Assembly (NCBI GenBank): GCA_014859085.1
Contig: JACUUY010000004.1
Location: forward strand, 1 to 45,310
Reading direction: 5' to 3'
From: Caldifarciminota bacterium
Lineage (GTDB): Bacteria > Hydrothermota > Tepidihabitantia > SM23-42
DNA length: 45,310 bases
Both the position numbers and the translations under genes were made by a program. The notes beneath the pieces are model-generated. The model had not been told where the DNA came from, ran no database searches, and was given only the letters and a program-made list of their open reading frames with translations. Positions 2,506 to 33,644 of the stretch are shown here, piece by piece (positions within the stretch are counted from its first letter, which is position 1; the number at the start of each line of letters is the position of its first letter).

Positions 2506-3147
2506 ATGAAGATCATGGCGCTGACCGATATCCACGGCCGGACCGGTCATTCCACAGAAGCGCGCGACCATCTGCAGCACGCCGACCTCGTGCTCGTCGC
2601 CGGTGATATCACCAATTTCGGCGGCTGGGATGATGCGAAGCGCGTCCTCGGGAACATCGCGGCGCTCAATAAGAATATCCTGGCCGTGTCCGGCAACTGC
2701 GATCGCGACGAGGTACGCCAGGCACTCTGCACCGGGCAGATGGACCTGCACGGAGTTGTCAGGATCATCGATGGCGCCATGTTTTATGGTGTCGGAGGGT
2801 GTAACACGACGCACTTTCACACGCCGCAGGAATACAGCGAAAAGGAAATAGCGGCCATATTGGCAAGGTTCCCTGATCCCTCGGGTGCGAGGCACACGAT
2901 CCTGGTCAGCCACGCGCCGCCGCATAAGACAAAACTCGACCGGATGTTCCTCGGCCTCCACGTCGGCAGCAAAGCGATCCGCACGTTCATTGAGGACGTT
3001 CAGCCTGATCTTGTTGTCTGCGGGCACATCCATGAAGCGCGCGGCGATGACCGCATCGGCCGGACGCTGATCCTCAACCCCGGCCAGTTTCCAAAACACT
3101 ATGCGCTGATCGAGGTCGACGAGGGCATCGGGTTCACTCTGTATTGA
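2506..3147 (+). CDS. Metallophosphoesterase (calcineurin-like)
   Basis: TDIHGR, AGDITNFGG, SGNCDR, VSHAPPH, CGHIHEARG motifs. Confidence 0.88.
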   Translation: MKIMALTDIHGRTGHSTEARDHLQHADLVLVAGDITNFGGWDDAKRVLGNIAALNKNILAVSGNCDRDEVRQALCTGQMDLHGVVRIIDGAMFYGVGGCNTTHFHTPQEYSEKEIAAILARFPDPSGARHTILVSHAPPHKTKLDRMFLGLHVGSKAIRTFIEDVQPDLVVCGHIHEARGDDRIGRTLILNPGQFPKHYALIEVDEGIGFTLY

Positions 3148-3162
3148 TCCCGGCGCGGAACG

Positions 3163-4146
3163 TCAGGCGTAGATACCCGGATTGACGATATTCGGCGGTT
3201 TCTTCTGATCGATCAGGACGGCAATAACATTGCCGGCAGCCATCAAGGCCATCTTCGTCCGGGTTTCGATCGAGGCCGAACCGATGTGCGGGACGAGCAC
3301 CACATTGTCCATGCCGAGCAGCCCGGTCGTGATTGCCGGCTCATTTTCGTAGACATCCAACGCGCAGCCCGCAATCTGCCCGCTTTTGAGCGCATGGACC
3401 AGTGCTTTTTCATCGATGATGGGACCGCGCGCCGTGTTGATCAAGAATGCCGTCCGCTTCATTCCCCGGAATTCTGCCGCTGATATGAGATGGTGCGTTT
3501 GAGCGTTGAGCGGCGCGTGTACCGACACGAAATCGGATACATCGAGAAGATTGTTGAGCGGACAATATTCGACGCCGCATCCCTTCTCATCAACCGCCGA
3601 CAGGGGTTGGACATCGTAGTACAGAACCTTCATGTCAAAACCCCGCGCGCGCCGCGCCACTGCCCTGCCGATCCGCCCCATGCCGATGATGCCCAGGGTC
3701 TTGTTGTGCACATCGATCCCGAGCATGAGCTCGGGCGCCCAGCCTTTGAATCCGCCCGCGCGCAGGAATCGGTCCGACTCAACGATGCGCCGGGCGATCG
3801 AGAGCAACAAGCCGAATGCCAGGTCAGCCGTCGTTTCGGTGAGGACGTCCGGCGTGTTCGTGACCGGTATCTTGCGCTTCGACGCCTCGGCAAGATCGAT
3901 GTTGTCGTACCCGACCGCATAATCGGCAATGATCTTCAGGCGCGTTGCACCCGCGATCACGGGTCGGTCGATACGGTCGGTCAGAAGGCAGATCAGACCG
4001 TCCTTGTCCTTGACCTTCTCGACCAGAACCCCGTGCGGCATAACGCGATTTTCGCGGTTGGCATCGAGTTCGAAATGTTTTTCAAGGACTTCCATGGATG
4101 CTCCAGGAAGCATGCGCGTAAGCAGCACCTTTGGTCTCGCACTCAT
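3163..4146 (-). CDS. D-isomer-specific 2-hydroxyacid dehydrogenase (glyoxylate/hydroxypyruvate reductase-like)
   Basis: LGIIGMGRIGRAVARRARGFDMKVLYYD, NTARGPIIDEKALVHAL, VLVPHIGSAS. Confidence 0.9.
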   Translation of the reverse strand: MSARPKVLLTRMLPGASMEVLEKHFELDANRENRVMPHGVLVEKVKDKDGLICLLTDRIDRPVIAGATRLKIIADYAVGYDNIDLAEASKRKIPVTNTPDVLTETTADLAFGLLLSIARRIVESDRFLRAGGFKGWAPELMLGIDVHNKTLGIIGMGRIGRAVARRARGFDMKVLYYDVQPLSAVDEKGCGVEYCPLNNLLDVSDFVSVHAPLNAQTHHLISAAEFRGMKRTAFLINTARGPIIDEKALVHALKSGQIAGCALDVYENEPAITTGLLGMDNVVLVPHIGSASIETRTKMALMAAGNVIAVLIDQKKPPNIVNPGIYA

Positions 4147-24734: not shown

Positions 24735-25706
24735 GTGGGATATTTGAAATACTTTGGATTAGTTTTCCTTGTCTTGTCTTTCTGCGGCCGGCCTGAGGTC
24801 ACGGAGCCGGAAACGAACTTCGTTATAATCGGGGGGTGCCCGCTTCCAGGTTATGCCAAGAAAGTCGAGCTCGCGGGCGGTCTGGCCTACGTGGCAAATG
24901 GACAGGGCGGGTTGCAGATCGTCGATATCAACGACCCGGATTCGGCGTTTATCGTCGGCAGCTATGAACCCGACCGCGATGTCGGCGGCGTTGCCGTGCG
25001 GGACACCTTCGCCTTTCTCGCCCTCGCCTCGTCGACGAGCGGCGGCCTCGTGATCCTGAACGTCAGCGACCCGGCAAACCCGCTATTTGTCGGGCAGGAT
25101 CCATCGATATACGGATACGACGTTGCGGCTCCGCCGGCCGATACAATGTATGTCTACATTGCAGCAAGCTACTGGTTCATTATCGAGGATGTGTATTCAT
25201 ATCCTCAATATCCGTCTTTTGCCCGCCGGTTTTCGACCCCGGGTAATGTCCGCCATGTGTTCATGGCAGGTCAGATGGCATACCTGGCGTGCGAGCAGAT
25301 GGGGCTCCAGTTGGTTGACCTTTCGAGACCAGACAGCACGGCCCTGGCCGGCTGGATCGACACGCCGTCCAATGCGCGGAATGTCTTTGTCACCGGCGAC
25401 TATGCTTACGTGGCAGACGGCCGCGCCGGACTCATTATCATCGATGTATCGAATATCGACCATCCTGTTCTTGTGGGCCAGTATGATACGCCCAGGTACG
25501 CGAATGGCGTCCACGTATCGGGCAACCTCGCCTACGTGGCTGACGGTGAAGGTGGGCTGCAGGTGATCGACGTCACTGACCCGGCAGATCCTGAATTGTA
25601 CGGCAGAATAACGACCCCCTACGCAAACGGCGTCTACGTGCGCAACGATACGGTCTATATCGCGGATCGCGATATGGGACTCGTGATAATCGTGGAGGAG
25701 CAATGA
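24735..25706 (+). CDS. LVIVD-repeat lipoprotein
   Basis: Lipobox-like FLVLSFCG; repeats AYVANGQGGLQIVDINDPDS, AYVADGRAGLIIIDVSNIDHP, AYVADGEGGLQVIDVTDPADP. Confidence 0.85.
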   Translation: MGYLKYFGLVFLVLSFCGRPEVTEPETNFVIIGGCPLPGYAKKVELAGGLAYVANGQGGLQIVDINDPDSAFIVGSYEPDRDVGGVAVRDTFAFLALASSTSGGLVILNVSDPANPLFVGQDPSIYGYDVAAPPADTMYVYIAASYWFIIEDVYSYPQYPSFARRFSTPGNVRHVFMAGQMAYLACEQMGLQLVDLSRPDSTALAGWIDTPSNARNVFVTGDYAYVADGRAGLIIIDVSNIDHPVLVGQYDTPRYANGVHVSGNLAYVADGEGGLQVIDVTDPADPELYGRITTPYANGVYVRNDTVYIADRDMGLVIIVEEQ

Positions 25707-28700
25707 TTCTGTTAGCAATGCTCCTCATCAGCGCCGCGGTCCAGGATGAGATCCAGATCATAGCAAGCACGCCATCGATGCTTTCTTTTCGCCTGGAATT
25801 CTCCGATTTCAGACAGAGCGAGCAGGTCCCGATCACGAGATTCATCATTTCGGAAAAAATGCCCACTTATGAATATACCGCAGCACAGATCGACTCTTCG
25901 ACCGACGCGGAGGGATCGCCCGATACCGGGCCGGTAATGATCGGGGATCCGGTCCCCTTCGGAGATGTCACACTCTACCCTGTTACCATTCAGCCTTCTT
26001 ATGTCAATAACCAGGTCAAGCGTTATGTAAAAACTGCTGAGGTGCGGCTGGATTTCATCCCAAGCCCGCGGCAGCCTCAGCTCAGCCCGTCCATGAGTTC
26101 TGTATTCAGGTCGCTGATCCTCAATTTTCGCCAGACCGGTAACGGCAAACCCATGGGCTATCTCATTATCACACCCGAGGCCTACCTCAGCACGATCCAA
26201 CCCCTGGCAAGGTGGAAAGAAAAGAAGGGCTGGCATGTCGAGATCAGAACACTGTCACAAACCGGCAGCACGGCCGTCCAGATCAGGAACTATATCGCAG
26301 GCGCTTACAGCACCTGGTCGCCCCGACCCGAGTACGTCCTGCTTGCGGGTAACGATATCCCGGCCGCCGCGAACATCACGCCGCCGGGCGCGACGGACCA
26401 TCCCTACACCCTGATCCAGGGTGACGATTTTCTCAGCGAACTCCTCATCGGCCGGCTGCCCGCAGCCAACGAACTGGAGCTGGCAACCATGGTCGCCAAG
26501 ATTATCGGCTACGAAACAAACCCGTTTGCGGCTGGCACATCATGGTACACGCGCTCGCTCATGGTCGGCGCAAACGAGCCGGCGAACATGACAACGCCTC
26601 TGCCCACGAAACGATTCGTGCGGGACAAACTGATTTCAAAGGGTATTACGAATGTGGACACGGTGTTCTTTCCGATGCCCGCTTCGGAGATCGCAAACTC
26701 CGTAAATCAGGGTGCACTATTCGTGAATTACCGCGCTGGTCAAGGCCTATGGGGAGGATGGCCTTTCCCCTATTTCATAAATAGTGATGTACTGGTGCTC
26801 GAAAATGGATGGAAATTGCCGGTAGTTACGAGCATAACCTGCATGACCGGCAATTTCACCAATAACGCGTGCTTCGGCAAGAACTGGTTGGTGGCCGGAA
26901 ATCCGGTCACACCCCGAGGCGCAGTCGCATTTATCGGTGCATCCGCAACATCAACATCGAGCCGGTGGAACAACTGTTTGGACTACGGGATCTACTGGGC
27001 GATCTGCAACGAAGACATTCACAGCATAGCCGCGGCGCTGTATCGCGGCAAAATGGAAGTGTACGCGAACTTCCCCGGTGATACGACATGGTTGTCGGGC
27101 AGTTCGTTCTACTTCCACACCTACAATCTGCTCGGCGATCCGTCGCTGGAGCTCTGGACCGGCGTACCCGATTCATTCATCGCAACTCATGCATCATCGA
27201 TGCCGGCCGGCACCAATTCATTCTCGGTGCATATTGCAAACAGCGCGTCGCAACCGGTTAGCGGAGCGATGGTCAGTCTCTACAAGGTAAGTGAAGTCAA
27301 GGAAGTCGGGTACACGGACGCTTCCGGCAATATTGAATTCAACTTCGCGACGTCGACCCAGGACACGATGTTCGTGACCGTAACCAAGCACAATTTCAAA
27401 CCCTATCGCGGATACGCCATGGCCACGAGTTCGGCCGTTTTTGTCGGTCACCATTCCCATGCGGTCAATGACCCGTCCGGCAACAACAATGGCGAAGTCA
27501 ACCCGGGCGAGACGATCGAATTCGGTGTGACGCTCAAGAACTATGGCACTTCGACCACGGCGACCAATGTTACTGCGCGCCTGTCGATCGATAACGCCAA
27601 TGTGACGATCACTGATTCGATCAAGTCTTATGGAAATATTAACCCCGGCGCCACGGCGGCCGCTACGCCGTTCATCTTCAATGTTTCGACGAATGCGCAG
27701 CACAATGAAATGCTTGAATTCGACCTCAATATCACGTCGGGACAGGGTAACTGGTCAGGAACGCTCTGGGTGCCGGTCAAGGACGCCGAACTTATCTATG
27801 AGGCCCATCAGGTGCAGGACGCCAACGGCATCCTCGAACCGGGCGAAACGCGCGACCTGCTCGTTTCGGTAAAGAACACCGGCGGGCTCGCGGCAGGCAA
27901 TGTCTGGGGGGTCCTCCGTTCAGCAAATAGCGGGTTGACCGTAACCGACTCCACTGGTTATTTCGGCAATGTCGCGGTAGGCGGGTCAGCAACGAACAGT
28001 TCAAATTATTTCACTCTGTCAGCCCACCCGCAGCTGACACCAGGCACTATCGTTCGCTTCTCCCTGATCCTGACCGGTGACAATGGACTGGTCGACACAA
28101 CCGGGTTCCGGCTTACCCTCGGCATCGTCGATTCAAGCATACCCCTCGGACCTGATGCGTACGGATATTATGCCTATGACGACACGGACGCGGGATATCT
28201 CGAGACCCCGGTATTTGACTGGATCGAGATCGACCCGGCGCACGGCGGACCCGGGGACACGATCAGCCTCGGGCATGACGAGACCAAGACCGTCGGGCTG
28301 CCTTTCAATTTCAAATTCTACGGCAACTGGTACAACCGCGTCTCGATCTGCTCGAACGGCTATATGGCCATGGATTCAACCACGATCGCCGACATGTACA
28401 ACTGGCGCATACCGGCCGCTGGCGGACCGCCCCTGTTGATCGCGCCGTTCTGGGACGACCTGAGCCCCAATATCACGGATTCGAGCGGCAATGTCTGTTA
28501 CTGGCATGATGCCGCAAACCACCGCTTCGTTATCGAATGGTCGCGGGTCCAGCACATTCATGATCCAACAAATCCGACCCCGGCTGAGCTTCAGACATTC
28601 CAGGTCGTGCTTTACGATCCGCAGTACTATCCGACTCTGACCGGCGATGGCGAGATCCTGTTCCAGTACCTCGAGATCACGAACGACGACGTCTGGCACA

Positions 28701-29155
28701 ACTACGCAACCGTCGGCATTGAGAACTACGGCCACACGACCGGCATCGAATACACTTATGCGAACACGTACCCGCCGGCTGCGGCGCCCCTGGCAAACGG
28801 CCGCGCGATAAAATTCACGACCAGCCCGCCGGACACATTCACGGGCGTAGCCGAATTCAACACGACCCCCGTTGCCGGAATTTCACTGCAGGTATCGCCC
28901 AATCCCTCTTCGAAATTGGTCAGTATCAATTTCAGCATAGAGCAGAGCGCAAAGAGCATAGGGTTAGATATCTATAATGCAGCCGGCCGTCTGGTGAAAC
29001 ACTTTCACTGCGCTATGCCCCATGCCCCATGCGCTATGCAGGTAGTGTGGGACGGCACGGACAATACCGGCAGACGAGTTCCGGCCGGCATATATTTCGT
29101 AGTCTTGAAATCAGAACACCATTGTAGCACCAGGAAAGTGGTCCTCGTAGATTGA
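25703..29155 (+). CDS. C25 (gingipain-like) family protein with FlgD/T9SS-like C-terminal domain
   Basis: GYLIITPEAYLSTIQPLARWKEKKGWHVEIRTL...IRNYIAGAY...PEYVLLAGND...SITCMTGNF; CTD IYNAAGRLVKHF...WDGTDNTGRRVPAGIYFVVL. Confidence 0.85.
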   Translation: MILLAMLLISAAVQDEIQIIASTPSMLSFRLEFSDFRQSEQVPITRFIISEKMPTYEYTAAQIDSSTDAEGSPDTGPVMIGDPVPFGDVTLYPVTIQPSYVNNQVKRYVKTAEVRLDFIPSPRQPQLSPSMSSVFRSLILNFRQTGNGKPMGYLIITPEAYLSTIQPLARWKEKKGWHVEIRTLSQTGSTAVQIRNYIAGAYSTWSPRPEYVLLAGNDIPAAANITPPGATDHPYTLIQGDDFLSELLIGRLPAANELELATMVAKIIGYETNPFAAGTSWYTRSLMVGANEPANMTTPLPTKRFVRDKLISKGITNVDTVFFPMPASEIANSVNQGALFVNYRAGQGLWGGWPFPYFINSDVLVLENGWKLPVVTSITCMTGNFTNNACFGKNWLVAGNPVTPRGAVAFIGASATSTSSRWNNCLDYGIYWAICNEDIHSIAAALYRGKMEVYANFPGDTTWLSGSSFYFHTYNLLGDPSLELWTGVPDSFIATHASSMPAGTNSFSVHIANSASQPVSGAMVSLYKVSEVKEVGYTDASGNIEFNFATSTQDTMFVTVTKHNFKPYRGYAMATSSAVFVGHHSHAVNDPSGNNNGEVNPGETIEFGVTLKNYGTSTTATNVTARLSIDNANVTITDSIKSYGNINPGATAAATPFIFNVSTNAQHNEMLEFDLNITSGQGNWSGTLWVPVKDAELIYEAHQVQDANGILEPGETRDLLVSVKNTGGLAAGNVWGVLRSANSGLTVTDSTGYFGNVAVGGSATNSSNYFTLSAHPQLTPGTIVRFSLILTGDNGLVDTTGFRLTLGIVDSSIPLGPDAYGYYAYDDTDAGYLETPVFDWIEIDPAHGGPGDTISLGHDETKTVGLPFNFKFYGNWYNRVSICSNGYMAMDSTTIADMYNWRIPAAGGPPLLIAPFWDDLSPNITDSSGNVCYWHDAANHRFVIEWSRVQHIHDPTNPTPAELQTFQVVLYDPQYYPTLTGDGEILFQYLEITNDDVWHNYATVGIENYGHTTGIEYTYANTYPPAAAPLANGRAIKFTTSPPDTFTGVAEFNTTPVAGISLQVSPNPSSKLVSINFSIEQSAKSIGLDIYNAAGRLVKHFHCAMPHAPCAMQVVWDGTDNTGRRVPAGIYFVVLKSEHHCSTRKVVLVD
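28934..29040. repeat. Heptad inverted repeat, copy 1 (arms 28934-28961 and 29013-29040)
   Basis: AGCATAG AGCAGAG CGCAAAG AGCATAG / 51-nt spacer / CTATGCC CCATGCC CCATGCG CTATGCA. Confidence 0.8.
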
Positions 29156-29220
29156 AATGGTCATTAAGATCAACTGCAGCATGGTAATGAGTACTGTGTT
29201 GCGGTCATCAAGGGGGCATC

Positions 29221-30501
29221 ATGAAAGGTTTGTTGATATTTATTGCGTTCTCTTCGGCGGCATTTGCCACAAACTACCACGGCTGCGCGCTGGCGCCGGA
29301 CGGATTGAACGGCTGGGTCGTCAGTCTTGACACGGCGCTGATCCTGCACACGACCGACGGCGGCGTGACATGGACGCCGCAGCAGGTACCGCCCGACACT
29401 ATCGGTCGTAAGTTGTGGGATGTTACGTGTTACGACGGCATGAAGGCATGGACCACCGGTTTGCACGAACTTCACACCGCGGAAATACTGCATACTGCTG
29501 ACGGCGGCAGCCACTGGCACCGGCAGTACGCCGGATTTTCCAAGTACGGCACCCGGATCGAGTTCTCCAACGAGTACTACGGCCTGTCGGTCGGCGGGAA
29601 CGGTGCACTGGCACGCACTACCGACGGCGGTAATTACTGGGAACAGGTATTCACCGACTGGTTTCAGGCCGAGTACTACGGCGTATCGATCGTGAACCAG
29701 TGGGACAGCTGGATCTGCGCGGGCTGGCCCGATTCAATCGAAACCGGGCAGGGCTATATCGTCCGGACCTACGACGGCGGGATCACCTGGGACACGCTCA
29801 ACGGGTACCGCGCTCCCGGTTACGAAGATTTCTTCGATATCCACATGTTCAATGTCTTCGAGGGGATCGTGGTCGGCGGTTATGATGGCACGTATGAACC
29901 GATCATATGGAAGACCACGGACGGCGGCGCGACCTGGAATCCAATAACCCCACCAGCCGGCGCTTATTATCTCCGGGCCGTTGATTTCGTAGAGCAGGAA
30001 GGATGGGCAGTCGGCAAATCCGGCACCATCATCCATACAACGAACGCCGGTAATACCTGGACCATCCAGACCAGCCCGGCCGATAGCACGCTTTTCGATG
30101 TTGACTTCAGAAACCACCTGCACGGACTGGCATGCGGCTACAACTATATCCTGCTCACCACAGACGGTGGACAGAACTGGCAGCACGTGGGTGTTGAAGA
30201 GCACGATACCGGTGTTCCGACCGGCATCGCGCTCACCGCAAGCCCCAATCCCTTTTCGAAATTGACGAACGTCAATTTCAGCATAGAGCATGGCGCAGAG
30301 CGCATAGAGCTGCGCATCTACGATGCGACCGGCCGACTGGTCAAAGACTTACATCACGCTATGCTCCATGCTCCATGCGCTATGCAGGTGTTGTGGGACG
30401 GCACTGACGAACGCGGCCGGTTCGTGCCGCAGGGGGTCTATTTCATACGGCTGCAGGCGCCGGATATCGTCCGAACGATCAAGACGATCCTGCTCCGGTA
30501 G
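29221..30501 (+). CDS. YCF48/BNR-repeat (photosystem II stability factor-like) secreted protein with FlgD/T9SS-like C-terminal domain
   Basis: Repeated TTDGGxxW motifs; CTD IYDATGRLVKDL...LWDGTDERGRFVPQGVYFIRL. Confidence 0.85.
   Translation: MKGLLIFIAFSSAAFATNYHGCALAPDGLNGWVVSLDTALILHTTDGGVTWTPQQVPPDTIGRKLWDVTCYDGMKAWTTGLHELHTAEILHTADGGSHWHRQYAGFSKYGTRIEFSNEYYGLSVGGNGALARTTDGGNYWEQVFTDWFQAEYYGVSIVNQWDSWICAGWPDSIETGQGYIVRTYDGGITWDTLNGYRAPGYEDFFDIHMFNVFEGIVVGGYDGTYEPIIWKTTDGGATWNPITPPAGAYYLRAVDFVEQEGWAVGKSGTIIHTTNAGNTWTIQTSPADSTLFDVDFRNHLHGLACGYNYILLTTDGGQNWQHVGVEEHDTGVPTGIALTASPNPFSKLTNVNFSIEHGAERIELRIYDATGRLVKDLHHAMLHAPCAMQVLWDGTDERGRFVPQGVYFIRLQAPDIVRTIKTILLR
30259..30278. repeat. 8-bp palindromic hairpin AAATTGAC-GAAC-GTCAATTT just 5' of heptad copy 2
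   Basis: Direct reading; weaker cognates precede copies 1 and 3. Confidence 0.6.
30280..30386. repeat. Heptad inverted repeat, copy 2 (arms 30280-30307 and 30359-30386)
   Basis: AGCATAG AGCATGG CGCAGAG CGCATAG / 51-nt spacer / CTATGCT CCATGCT CCATGCG CTATGCA. Confidence 0.85.
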
Positions 30502-30605
30502 CCGCCGCTGCTGCCCCGCACCGGTCTATTGACTCGTCGCATAATCAGATTATAATTAAAGCCATAGGAAGTGTCTGACATCCACCAGATACAAAGGAGA
30601 CAAGC

Positions 30606-33600
30606 ATGAAAAGGTTCATGTTTTTGATTTTGCCGGTCTTGCTAAGCGCGCAGGTCCCGGACGGTGCCCGGTACCTGATCATCACCCATGACAATTTCTA
30701 CAACGACGTCAAGTCCCTTGCCGAGTGGAAACACAAGAAGGGCATGCAGACGAAGATCGCCAAACTCTCGGAGACTGGTTCGAGTTCCACGCAGATCAGG
30801 GATTACATCGTCAATGCCTACAATACCTGGACCGTGCAGCCCGAATACCTCCTGCTCGTGGGCGCCCCGAACCTGCTGCCCTGGGGACAGTCGTCTCCAT
30901 ACTCGGACAACCCCTACATGAACATGGACGGCGATATCTTCAACGAAATCCTGGCCGGCCGGCTGACCGTGCACAACAGCGATGAAGCGCAGACCGTGAT
31001 CAACAAGATTCTTCTATACGAGCGTACGCCGTACATGACCGATTCACTATGGATGCGCAACGCGTGTCTAATCGTGCGCGAGGACAGTTATGCATATCCA
31101 CCCAACCCGGGCACTGACGACTATATCTACTGGGGGGATTCCAGGCATGCATACGGCCTGATGCTGGCGCATGAATACAACCGAATGGATACATTGTCAA
31201 GACTGCTTGGCCATAACACTAACAGTGTTTACCAATCGGTTAACAGCGGTGTCGGGTTCGTCCAGTTCCGGGGCCAGGGCGTCGGCAACTGGTGGTCACC
31301 ATTCGATGTCAGCCCGGATGCGACGGCCAATGGCAGCATGCTGCCGATCGTGCTCTCGATAACCTGCTCGACCATCGGCAGCGGCTCGACACCGGCAACC
31401 GCCGAGCGCTGGCTCTTGACCGGCACGCCCACGAGTCCGCGCGGCGGCGCCGGCTATTTTGCAACAACGACAACCCGAAGCGGCGTCGCTCACATACGGA
31501 GCGCAGTATCAAGAGGCTTCTTCACCGGTATCTTTACCGATAGAAAAAGAACTTTTGGTGAAGCGTGTGAAGCGGGGAGATTGAATTTGTACAACCTGTA
31601 CAGCGATGCGTACGACTACAAGGGGTTCGCGACGCTCGGTGATCCTGAAATGAACATCTGGACCGCAACGCCCAAGCAGATAAATGTGGAGCATGTGCCC
31701 TCGCTACCCACCGACGCCGACTCGGTCCTCGTGACCGTAACCATCAATAATAACATACCGGTCGAATCGGCCCAGGTGTGCATCGTCCTCGACACGACGG
31801 TCTACGCGTACGGCTTCACCGACAGCAACGGCCAGATAGTATTCCAGCTCGGCTATCTCCATCCCGGACAGATAAGCGTTACGGTGACGGGCAGAAATCT
31901 CTACCCTCACGAGGGAACGATGGAGATCGTCGGCACCAGTGCTTACCTCCAGTACCAGAGCCACACGATAAGCGATTCACTGGGGAACAACAACGGCACG
32001 CCCGAGAACGGTGAGACGATCCTGCTCACGGCGATGATCCGCAACATCGGCGTCATCACCGCGACCGGCGTCCAGGCGATACTGACCTCGAACGACACCT
32101 TCGTGTCGATCATCGACAGTCTTTCGTATTTCGGCAATATTCCGCCGCAGGACTCAGCCGCCAATATCAGTCCGTACGTCATTGCCATTTCGAACATGTG
32201 CCCGGATAACCACATCGCGGGTTTCACGCTTGTCATGGAAGATGCCGGAAACAACGAATGGACCGGTGTCTTTTCGATGGTCATCAGCAATACGTCTTCG
32301 GGTGCGTACGTCGGCCCGGATGCGTACGGCTACTACATGTACGATGATACGGATACCCTGACCGGTTACGCGCCGGCATTCAACTGGTACGGCGGCGCAA
32401 TGGATATAGTAGTTGAGATCACCAATGAGGATGCGGACACGGTCACCTACCCCCTGCCATTCGTCTTCCCTTTCTACGGCATCAGCTACAACACGGTCGG
32501 CCTGTGCTCGAATGGCTTTCTGGAGATGGGCGCATCGACGTACCGGTTCGGCGACAACGGCCCGATTCCCTCGCCGGCCGGGCCGAGACGTTTGATCGCG
32601 CCTTTCTGGGATGATCTCGATCCGAGGCCTGAGCCGACCGGGACCGGGAACATCTACTACGCGCACGACGTGGCGAACAACCGCTGGATACTGGAATTCA
32701 GGAGCGTGGGATATTACGACGTAACGAGTCAACGGCAGACATTCCAGGTCCAGCTCCTGGACCCGCAATACTACACGACGCCTACGGGCGACGGTGAGAT
32801 CCTTTTCCTCTATGACACGGTCATGAACGCCACCGGCAACACGGTCGGGATCGAAGACCACACGCAAACCGTCGGCCTGCAGTACGTGTATAATAACAAT
32901 TATCATCCGAACGCAGCGCCGCTGGCCAACGGCCGCGCCATATTGATCACGACAAAAGTCCCGGTCGGCATATGGCTGCACACGGTCAATTACTCGTTCG
33001 ACGATTCGAACACCGGTAACAATAACGGCATGATCGAGCCCGGAGAAACCATAGAGGTGTATGTGCAGATCAATAACGGCGGCAATGCCGGCGCCAGCAA
33101 TGTGATCGCGACGTTGCGGACCGGCAGTCCGGATGCGGCGATCACGGACAGCACCGCAGACCTCGGTTCGATACCCGCTGGAGCGACCGCCGGGAACGAA
33201 AGCGACCCGTTCCTGGTCGAGATCAGCCCGACTGCGACCGACACGACGATCGGTTTCGTTCTTCACTTGAGCAGCAACCAGGGCGCGTACGAAAAGTCCG
33301 ATTACTTCACGCTCTATCTGTACGGCTTCCCGGGCGTGGCCGAACACAAGACCGCCGTTACGCCGGCCATCACCCTGTCCGCTCACCCCAATCCTTTCAC
33401 AAAATTGACGAACATCAATTTTGGCATAGAGCATAGCGCAGAGCGCATAGAGCTGCGCATCTTTGATGCCACCGGACGATTGGTCAGACACATGGATCAC
33501 ACCATGCTCCATGCCCCATGCGCTATGCAGGTGGTGTGGGACGGCACCGACGACCGCGGCCGGCACCTGCCCAATGGTGTGTACTTTGTCAACCTCGAGT

Positions 33601-33644
33601 ATGCCGGCAAGGTCGAAAAGACCAAGGTGATACTGGTCAAATGA
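30606..33644 (+). CDS. C25 (gingipain-like) family protein with FlgD/T9SS-like C-terminal domain, paralog of 25703-29155
   Basis: RYLIITHDNFYNDVKSLAEWKHKKGMQTKIAKLSETGSSSTQIRDYIVNAYNTWTVQPEYLLLVGAPN; SITCSTIGSG; CTD; AAAGGAGACAAGC SD. Confidence 0.85.
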   Translation: MKRFMFLILPVLLSAQVPDGARYLIITHDNFYNDVKSLAEWKHKKGMQTKIAKLSETGSSSTQIRDYIVNAYNTWTVQPEYLLLVGAPNLLPWGQSSPYSDNPYMNMDGDIFNEILAGRLTVHNSDEAQTVINKILLYERTPYMTDSLWMRNACLIVREDSYAYPPNPGTDDYIYWGDSRHAYGLMLAHEYNRMDTLSRLLGHNTNSVYQSVNSGVGFVQFRGQGVGNWWSPFDVSPDATANGSMLPIVLSITCSTIGSGSTPATAERWLLTGTPTSPRGGAGYFATTTTRSGVAHIRSAVSRGFFTGIFTDRKRTFGEACEAGRLNLYNLYSDAYDYKGFATLGDPEMNIWTATPKQINVEHVPSLPTDADSVLVTVTINNNIPVESAQVCIVLDTTVYAYGFTDSNGQIVFQLGYLHPGQISVTVTGRNLYPHEGTMEIVGTSAYLQYQSHTISDSLGNNNGTPENGETILLTAMIRNIGVITATGVQAILTSNDTFVSIIDSLSYFGNIPPQDSAANISPYVIAISNMCPDNHIAGFTLVMEDAGNNEWTGVFSMVISNTSSGAYVGPDAYGYYMYDDTDTLTGYAPAFNWYGGAMDIVVEITNEDADTVTYPLPFVFPFYGISYNTVGLCSNGFLEMGASTYRFGDNGPIPSPAGPRRLIAPFWDDLDPRPEPTGTGNIYYAHDVANNRWILEFRSVGYYDVTSQRQTFQVQLLDPQYYTTPTGDGEILFLYDTVMNATGNTVGIEDHTQTVGLQYVYNNNYHPNAAPLANGRAILITTKVPVGIWLHTVNYSFDDSNTGNNNGMIEPGETIEVYVQINNGGNAGASNVIATLRTGSPDAAITDSTADLGSIPAGATAGNESDPFLVEISPTATDTTIGFVLHLSSNQGAYEKSDYFTLYLYGFPGVAEHKTAVTPAITLSAHPNPFTKLTNINFGIEHSAERIELRIFDATGRLVRHMDHTMLHAPCAMQVVWDGTDDRGRHLPNGVYFVNLEYAGKVEKTKVILVK
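33423..33529. repeat. Heptad inverted repeat, copy 3 (arms 33423-33450 and 33502-33529)
   Basis: GGCATAG AGCATAG CGCAGAG CGCATAG / 51-nt spacer / CCATGCT CCATGCC CCATGCG CTATGCA. Confidence 0.82.

Follow-up and report, generated by a model that had tools for sequence, protein, structure and literature searches.

Three inverted heptad elements in adjacent secreted-protein genes

The window analyzed here is a 45,310-nucleotide stretch of DNA from a Caldifarciminota bacterium (contig JACUUY010000004.1, positions 1 to 45,310), and its forward strand carries three adjacent genes whose products end in a sorting-type C-terminal domain (CTD) that holds, in frame, a pair of inverted arrays of a 7-nt word. 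The first gene, g1 (25703-29155), encodes a secreted Peptidase_C25 protein with a C-terminal FlgD_ig/type IX secretion system (T9SS)-like domain; g2 (29221-30501) encodes a secreted YCF48/BNR-repeat protein with a CTD, and g3 (30606-33644) a second secreted Peptidase_C25 protein with a CTD (open reading frames (ORFs) annotated with Pfam and NCBIfam profiles). Each gene hosts one element (28934-29040, 30280-30386 and 33423-33529, respectively) composed of a 28-nt left arm, a 51-nt spacer and a 28-nt right arm, with 20, 22 and 20 of the 28 arm positions forming Watson-Crick pairs. The left arm of element 1 (28934-28961) consists of the four heptads AGCATAG, AGCAGAG, CGCAAAG and AGCATAG, and its right arm (29013-29040) of CTATGCC, CCATGCC, CCATGCG and CTATGCA. 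The arms of element 2 (30280-30307 and 30359-30386) enclose a spacer (30308-30358) that codes the conserved core around IYDATGRLVKDL, and those of element 3 lie at 33423-33450 and 33502-33529. The elements had been picked out by a sequence-only reading of this DNA, whose coordinates, four heptads per arm, spacer length and pairing counts all proved exact. They are also unique in the window, as a scan for the 28-51-28 geometry found pairing of at least 18 positions nowhere else in it, and in-register GCANRG triples occur 12 times as compared to 0 in 200 dinucleotide shuffles. Translation constrains the unit, since in the GCA NAG register it reads GCAGAG or GCAAAG and not GCATAG, which would introduce a stop codon. 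An Rfam scan of the window returned no match.

Sequence profiles and fold prediction agree that the heptads sit in FlgD/T9SS-like sorting domains, as had been proposed. The CTDs match the FlgD_ig and Por_Secre_tail profiles (FlgD_ig E values of 3e-9, 4e-7 and 2e-10), and the predicted fold (mean pLDDT 86.5) is nearest to the solved structures of FlgD (3osv), PorZ (5m11) and PorU (6za2); Pfam, NCBIfam and the fold comparison concur that the host domain is a T9SS C-terminal/FlgD Ig-like domain. In the predicted fold, the left arm occupies the β2-β3 loop (termed V1) and the right arm the β4-β5 loop (termed V2). Likeness between the three genes extends over a 255-nt loop cassette around both arms (repeat family D1; 28843-29097, 30189-30443 and 33332-33586) and not over the whole domain, as the tails differ. 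The cassette includes a short palindrome directly 5' of the V1 heptads (AAATTGGTCAGTATCAATTT at 28913-28932, AAATTGACGAACGTCAATTT at 30259-30278 and AAATTGACGAACATCAATTT at 33402-33421), which pairs at 6.1 of 8 positions in domains bearing the GCATRG word (A-type domains) as compared to 2.8 of 8 in others. These 20-nt coding palindromes exhibit compensating changes between copies (AAATTGA/TCAATTT versus AAGCTGA/TCAGCTT), and none was seen beside the intergenic heptad arrays that were inspected.

The word is dispersed and flanks one subfamily of four-helix-bundle genes

The heptad word is not inherent to the sorting domain. Only about six of the 98 CTD matches in the window's own genome (252 contigs) carry it; as the sequence-only reading had held, the domain does not need heptads, and word-bearing loops are not a feature of the T9SS/FlgD_ig family. 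About 19 (GCATRGN)n arrays lie outside convincing genes in this genome, as counted by ORF inspection of fetched stretches rather than from annotation. They are often close to contig ends, as expected for dispersed repeats, and often stand beside other word-like repeats (e.g. AGAAGGTA, AAATCCG, GATACTCG and ATTCGTG). CYATGC heptads are also present in frame in the linker of a Wzc-like tyrosine autokinase (locus L083, about 3440-3470), between two profile-matched stretches. At locus L081, inverted arms built from heptads and a GATACTGG-type word (3009-3028 and 3510-3536) enclose ~480 bp with a tRNA-Pro gene, and at L086 (3075-3125) a CTD has an additional in-frame palindromic insert (GTCCTTGAAGGACGAGAATCCTCGTC...) within its left heptad arm.

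The same word brackets a small gene. At positions 788-1223 of contig C190 in the own genome (locus L083), a gene of the S23/23S_rRNA_IVP family is located between inverted heptads; its product is a TIGR02436/PF05635 four-helix bundle, whose nearest solved structure is XCC0516 (2gsc), and belongs to a subfamily that we refer to as 4HB-A (FRFQDLxIW...). The longest reading frame of this gene begins within the upstream array, which raises the possibility that translation of the words gives the protein an N-terminal extension. GCATRG arrays upstream combined with CYATGC arrays downstream were found at 25 of 30 4HB-A genes, part of this set having come via genomes selected for heptads, but at none of 86 four-helix-bundle genes outside this subfamily (Fisher p about 1e-20). 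When 297 genomes were sampled without regard to heptads, 9 of 14 4HB-A genes had both arms, and the word occurs in 10 of the 13 genomes with a close 4HB-A gene versus 22 of the 284 without one (Fisher p about 1e-8). The genomes that contributed 4HB-A genes include Desulfobacterales, other Deltaproteobacteria, Nitrospirae, Omnitrophota, KSB1 and the window's own genus. Arrays vary in length, reaching 14 units, and no rRNA genes were present at the 18 4HB-A loci inspected.

Inverted flanks are common in the wider family. Among 96 distinct four-helix-bundle genes drawn from many genomes, a score comparing the upstream flank with the reverse complement of the downstream flank averaged 18.7, as compared to 9.9 ± 0.33 (maximum 11.8) when flanks were permuted between genes and 10.0 for ORFs of other kinds at these loci; the 95th percentile was exceeded by 72% of the genes and by 4.9% of 246 control ORFs. 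The word tracks the protein, in that gene pairs above ~45% protein identity mostly have the same word and pairs below this value do not; GCATRG goes with 4HB-A, and other subfamilies use words of their own. Across loci L326-L425, drawn from many genomes, most S23/IVP genes have their own inverted word arrays, including AAATCCG/GGATTTCG, ATTCGTA and GAAGTTA. We found no literature linking PF05635/TIGR02436 genes to dispersed words, in a search whose coverage excluded preprints and most subscription journals, so that the novelty of the link is not assured. That repeat words are coupled to subfamilies of four-helix-bundle genes is the larger result, and the window elements are coding-sequence offshoots of this coupling.

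Several word families share the two loops and are probably exchanged between genes

To describe the loops more broadly, 75 CTDs were parsed from eight genomes, the set comprising those recognized by a loop pattern; word classes were assigned with simple patterns and are doubtful in a few cases. Family A, the GCATRG word, shares both loops with families B (GATACTCG.../...ATCAAGTATC) and C (CAGATAAC.../...TTATCAG), and families D (CACTTCTTA) and E (GACTATC) occur in V2 only. Expressed as V1-V2 combinations, the same family fills both loops in 26 domains (A-A 13, B-B 10, C-C 3), and GCATRG in V1 is joined to a different, non-complementary family in V2 in 17 (A-B 11, A-D 3, A-E 2, A-C 1); a word is missing from one loop (A-none 6, none-B 3) or both (none-none 23) in the remainder. 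Scored against the reverse complement of V2 from the same CTD, V1 reaches 8.16, as compared to 6.36 ± 0.31 after permuting V2 among CTDs (0 of 10000 permutations); matching in the direct orientation was not significant by permutation, and word-free CTDs likewise showed nothing. The words thus tend to come as inverted same-family pairs, as they do around four-helix-bundle genes, although mixes that cannot pair are still common. By inspection, some four-helix-bundle genes too are flanked by words resembling families C, D and E (L337, L377 and L343/L334). Word-bearing CTDs are nearly length-neutral relative to word-free ones, and the 51-nt spacer is the same in most A-A copies. The protein probably tolerates the arms as material that fills its loops.

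Comparison of orthologs reveals local replacement of the loop segment. None of the five g3 orthologs identified in relatives (65-72% identity before the CTD) has heptads; they align with g3 in the C-terminal tail and in the frame that surrounds the loops, and it is mainly the V1-V2 segment that has been replaced. The g2 and g3 genes share the loop segment only, as their tails differ and that of g3 resembles its own orthologs. Duplication of a CTD already carrying the repeat, which had been offered as an alternative origin, therefore holds as exchange of a loop cassette between genes and fails as copying of the whole domain. Other ortholog pairs also differ in their loop words (none versus A, A-A versus A-B, B-B versus C-C), several of them being judged from just 80-120 residues of protein body. 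A 465-residue neighbouring ORF in genome G005 was considered as a g2 ortholog with other words and was dropped, as only its CTD aligned; g3 is the firm case.

The arms are also unusually alike at the DNA level. Where two of the 13 A-A-type domains encode the same amino acid at a site, they use the same codon in 74% of cases in V1 and 82% in V2, as compared to 40-49% in the core and outer flanks, with amino-acid identity similar in all of these regions. In the ortholog pairs L264, L266 and L275, third-position identity is 0.73-0.91 in the arms versus 0.38-0.62 in the core and tail. This DNA-level similarity is real, and conversion, recent acquisition and DNA-level selection all fit it. The proposal that a heptad element was propagated in coding DNA is supported, in that the word extends beyond CTD paralogs, has intergenic copies, and diverges less at synonymous sites than the flanking domain DNA.

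Origin of the arrays and alternative explanations

We consider it probable that the arms are in-frame word arrays of a family of elements resembling intervening sequences (IVS) and repetitive extragenic palindromes (REP), captured in two loops that tolerate them and then passed between genes through exchange of the cassette. Most of the four-helix-bundle genes studied lie between a short-word array and its inverted copy, with words that differ by subfamily, and solo arrays are scattered through the genome like REPs around the genes of REP-associated tyrosine transposases (RAYTs). The four-helix-bundle element, acting as protein, RNA or DNA, may generate or mobilize the words. A first array could have entered either V1 or V2, its inverted partner coming along with it or arising via template switching, and the β-sandwich loops would have accepted the arrays in frame as forward word, core and inverted word. 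Recombination between CTDs, or local conversion, would then have spread and mixed the loop segments, so that orthologs carry different words or none.

The sequence-only reading had suggested a hairpin role near the 3' end of each mRNA, and we regard it as very unlikely that the inverted arms are kept as a functional mRNA or DNA hairpin. In its favor, V1 and V2 are complementary beyond permutation, third-position identity is high in the arms, a small palindrome precedes V1, and folding is better than that of shuffles for two of the three elements taken alone (z of -0.82, -4.28 and -2.61 for elements 1-3; -1.7, -5.6 and -5.2 when the 5' palindrome, AAATTGACGAACGTCAATTT and its variants, is included). 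Element 1 alone, however, scarcely departs from shuffled sequence, 17 of 75 CTDs combine GCATRG in V1 with a V2 word unable to pair with it, and 23 have no word at all. The predicted pairing between arms is present, but it exists because both arms share the unit consensus; mismatches fall mainly at unit position 1 in all three elements, and arm-to-arm covariation at this variable position was looked for in them and is absent. Folding of the elements is possible, but a required hairpin is not supported because of the mixed pairs, the word-free orthologs (those of g3 included) and a variable unit position that does not covary between arms.

The remaining alternatives concern how the words arose. 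Plain duplication of a CTD that happened to hold a repeat, with the heptads linked to nothing else, would account for three close copies in adjacent genes and for the constant spacer of most A-A copies. It does not account for a word dispersed outside CTDs that flanks 4HB-A genes across phyla, for the g3 tail that still resembles its own orthologs while only the loop segment is shared with g2, for arms whose synonymous identity exceeds that of the flanking domain DNA, or for other words filling the same loops; we give it little credence. As a complete account, duplication is refuted by the intergenic copies and the four-helix-bundle flanks, and it survives only as a route of cassette copying. 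Generic heptamer slippage, of the kind seen in short tandemly repeated repetitive (STRR)-like sequences, with independent origins and inverted copies made by template switching within one gene, is unlikely but has somewhat more to commend it. Several groups of bacteria are known to have heptamer arrays (PMC4679880, PMC4692102), the arrays differ in length and reach 14 units, and template switching could produce a nearby inverted second arm; slippage predicts neither that one consensus should flank one protein subfamily in several phyla nor that word family should track protein subfamily, although it may be the source of length changes and of V2 from V1. Finally, in a process akin to diversity-generating retroelements (DGRs), a relative of a DGR accessory protein would use word templates adjacent to its own gene to rewrite the two loops. 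In favor of this, PF05635 proteins are similar to Avd of DGRs (PMC10053308), the variable segments belong to 3'-terminal domains of secreted proteins and form inter-strand loops that by strand order would both project from the same end of the sandwich, and words at orthologous loops change between species. Against this, the arms are repeats rather than mutated copies of one template, many CTDs are wordless, and neither a reverse transcriptase nor a template/variable repeat pair was identified, no genome-wide search having been made; we view this explanation as extremely improbable.

Several observations weigh against capture of word arrays from a four-helix-bundle element family. Neither a transposition event nor an empty site was observed for a four-helix-bundle element, and words occur in the absence of a close 4HB-A gene in the 22 of 284 genomes noted above and also in G003, G004 and G007. 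One four-helix-bundle clade (HFTDLRVWQK...; L354, L355, L359, L373, L374 and L382) is without word arms and is possibly a domesticated or immobile form. The sole four-helix-bundle gene found with word family B (L418) has it in the opposite orientation, and in the ortholog pair L269/L282 it is the arms, not the core, that diverge more rapidly. Recent acquisition, conversion or DNA-level selection could each underlie the high synonymous identity of the arms. In addition, the permutation and Fisher tests exaggerate significance, since members of a family are not independent sequences.

Arrays of 7-9 nt words, seen here in several phyla, have no accepted origin; the link between word and subfamily gives such repeats a cognate gene and gives the orphan S23/IVP family a likely nucleic-acid target. 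Words that enter coding DNA at fixed loops of secreted domains and are exchanged between genes represent a case of repeat DNA reshaping proteins. A broader proposal, in which a large class of mobile DNA in uncultured bacteria lacks a known transposase, has S23/IVP four-helix-bundle proteins as its dedicated, word-specific agents and also rewrites exposed loops of secreted proteins as recurrent targets, is speculative and in our estimate rather doubtful.

Comparison with known repeat systems

Rickettsia palindromic elements occur both in and between genes, where they are inserted in frame and translated as single units of ~100-150 bp. The heptad word is similarly both intergenic and in frame in unrelated proteins (the CTDs and the Wzc-like kinase linker), but it forms two separate arrays around a conserved 51-nt host core instead of a single inserted block, the two loops are shared by several word families, and the word has a cognate gene subfamily.

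In logic, the closest analogue is the RAYT gene located between inverted REPs. As in REP/RAYT systems (PMC2817692, PMC3116915), a small gene lies between inverted short repeats that are dispersed genome-wide, the gene subtype is matched to the repeat type, and presence of the repeat correlates with presence of the gene. The elements described here are nevertheless not classed as REP/RAYT because the protein family differs, the cognate gene encoding an S23/IVP four-helix bundle and not an IS200/IS605-like tyrosine (HUH) transposase. The repeats differ as well, as they are tandem arrays of degenerate 7-9 nt words rather than a single tagged palindrome, and copies are also found in frame in coding loops; by inspection, the NGCATRG arrays are without the GTAG- or CGTC-type tag of REPs (PMC2817692, PMC3733652).

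The IVS of rRNA genes share with the elements an S23-family ORF within terminal inverted repeats that form a stem. The 4HB-A elements differ in lying outside rRNA genes (18 loci), in having solo word arrays dispersed through the genome, and in word families that vary by subfamily. The classical 23S IVS nevertheless looks like one member of the word-flanked pattern, because that of Coxiella has an S23 ORF, a 28-bp terminal stem and tandem GACAGAT heptamers directly upstream of the start codon (PMC4990558). Members of PF05635 have also been reported within cas loci, one of them located between cmr genes (PMC3936711). The TAACTGA direct repeats of Beggiatoaceae are likewise dispersed intergenic heptamer arrays in uncultured bacteria, and the paper describing them makes no mention of S23, four-helix or intervening sequences (PMC4679880). 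A word similar to TAACTGA, GATAACTG, flanks the four-helix-bundle gene at L337.

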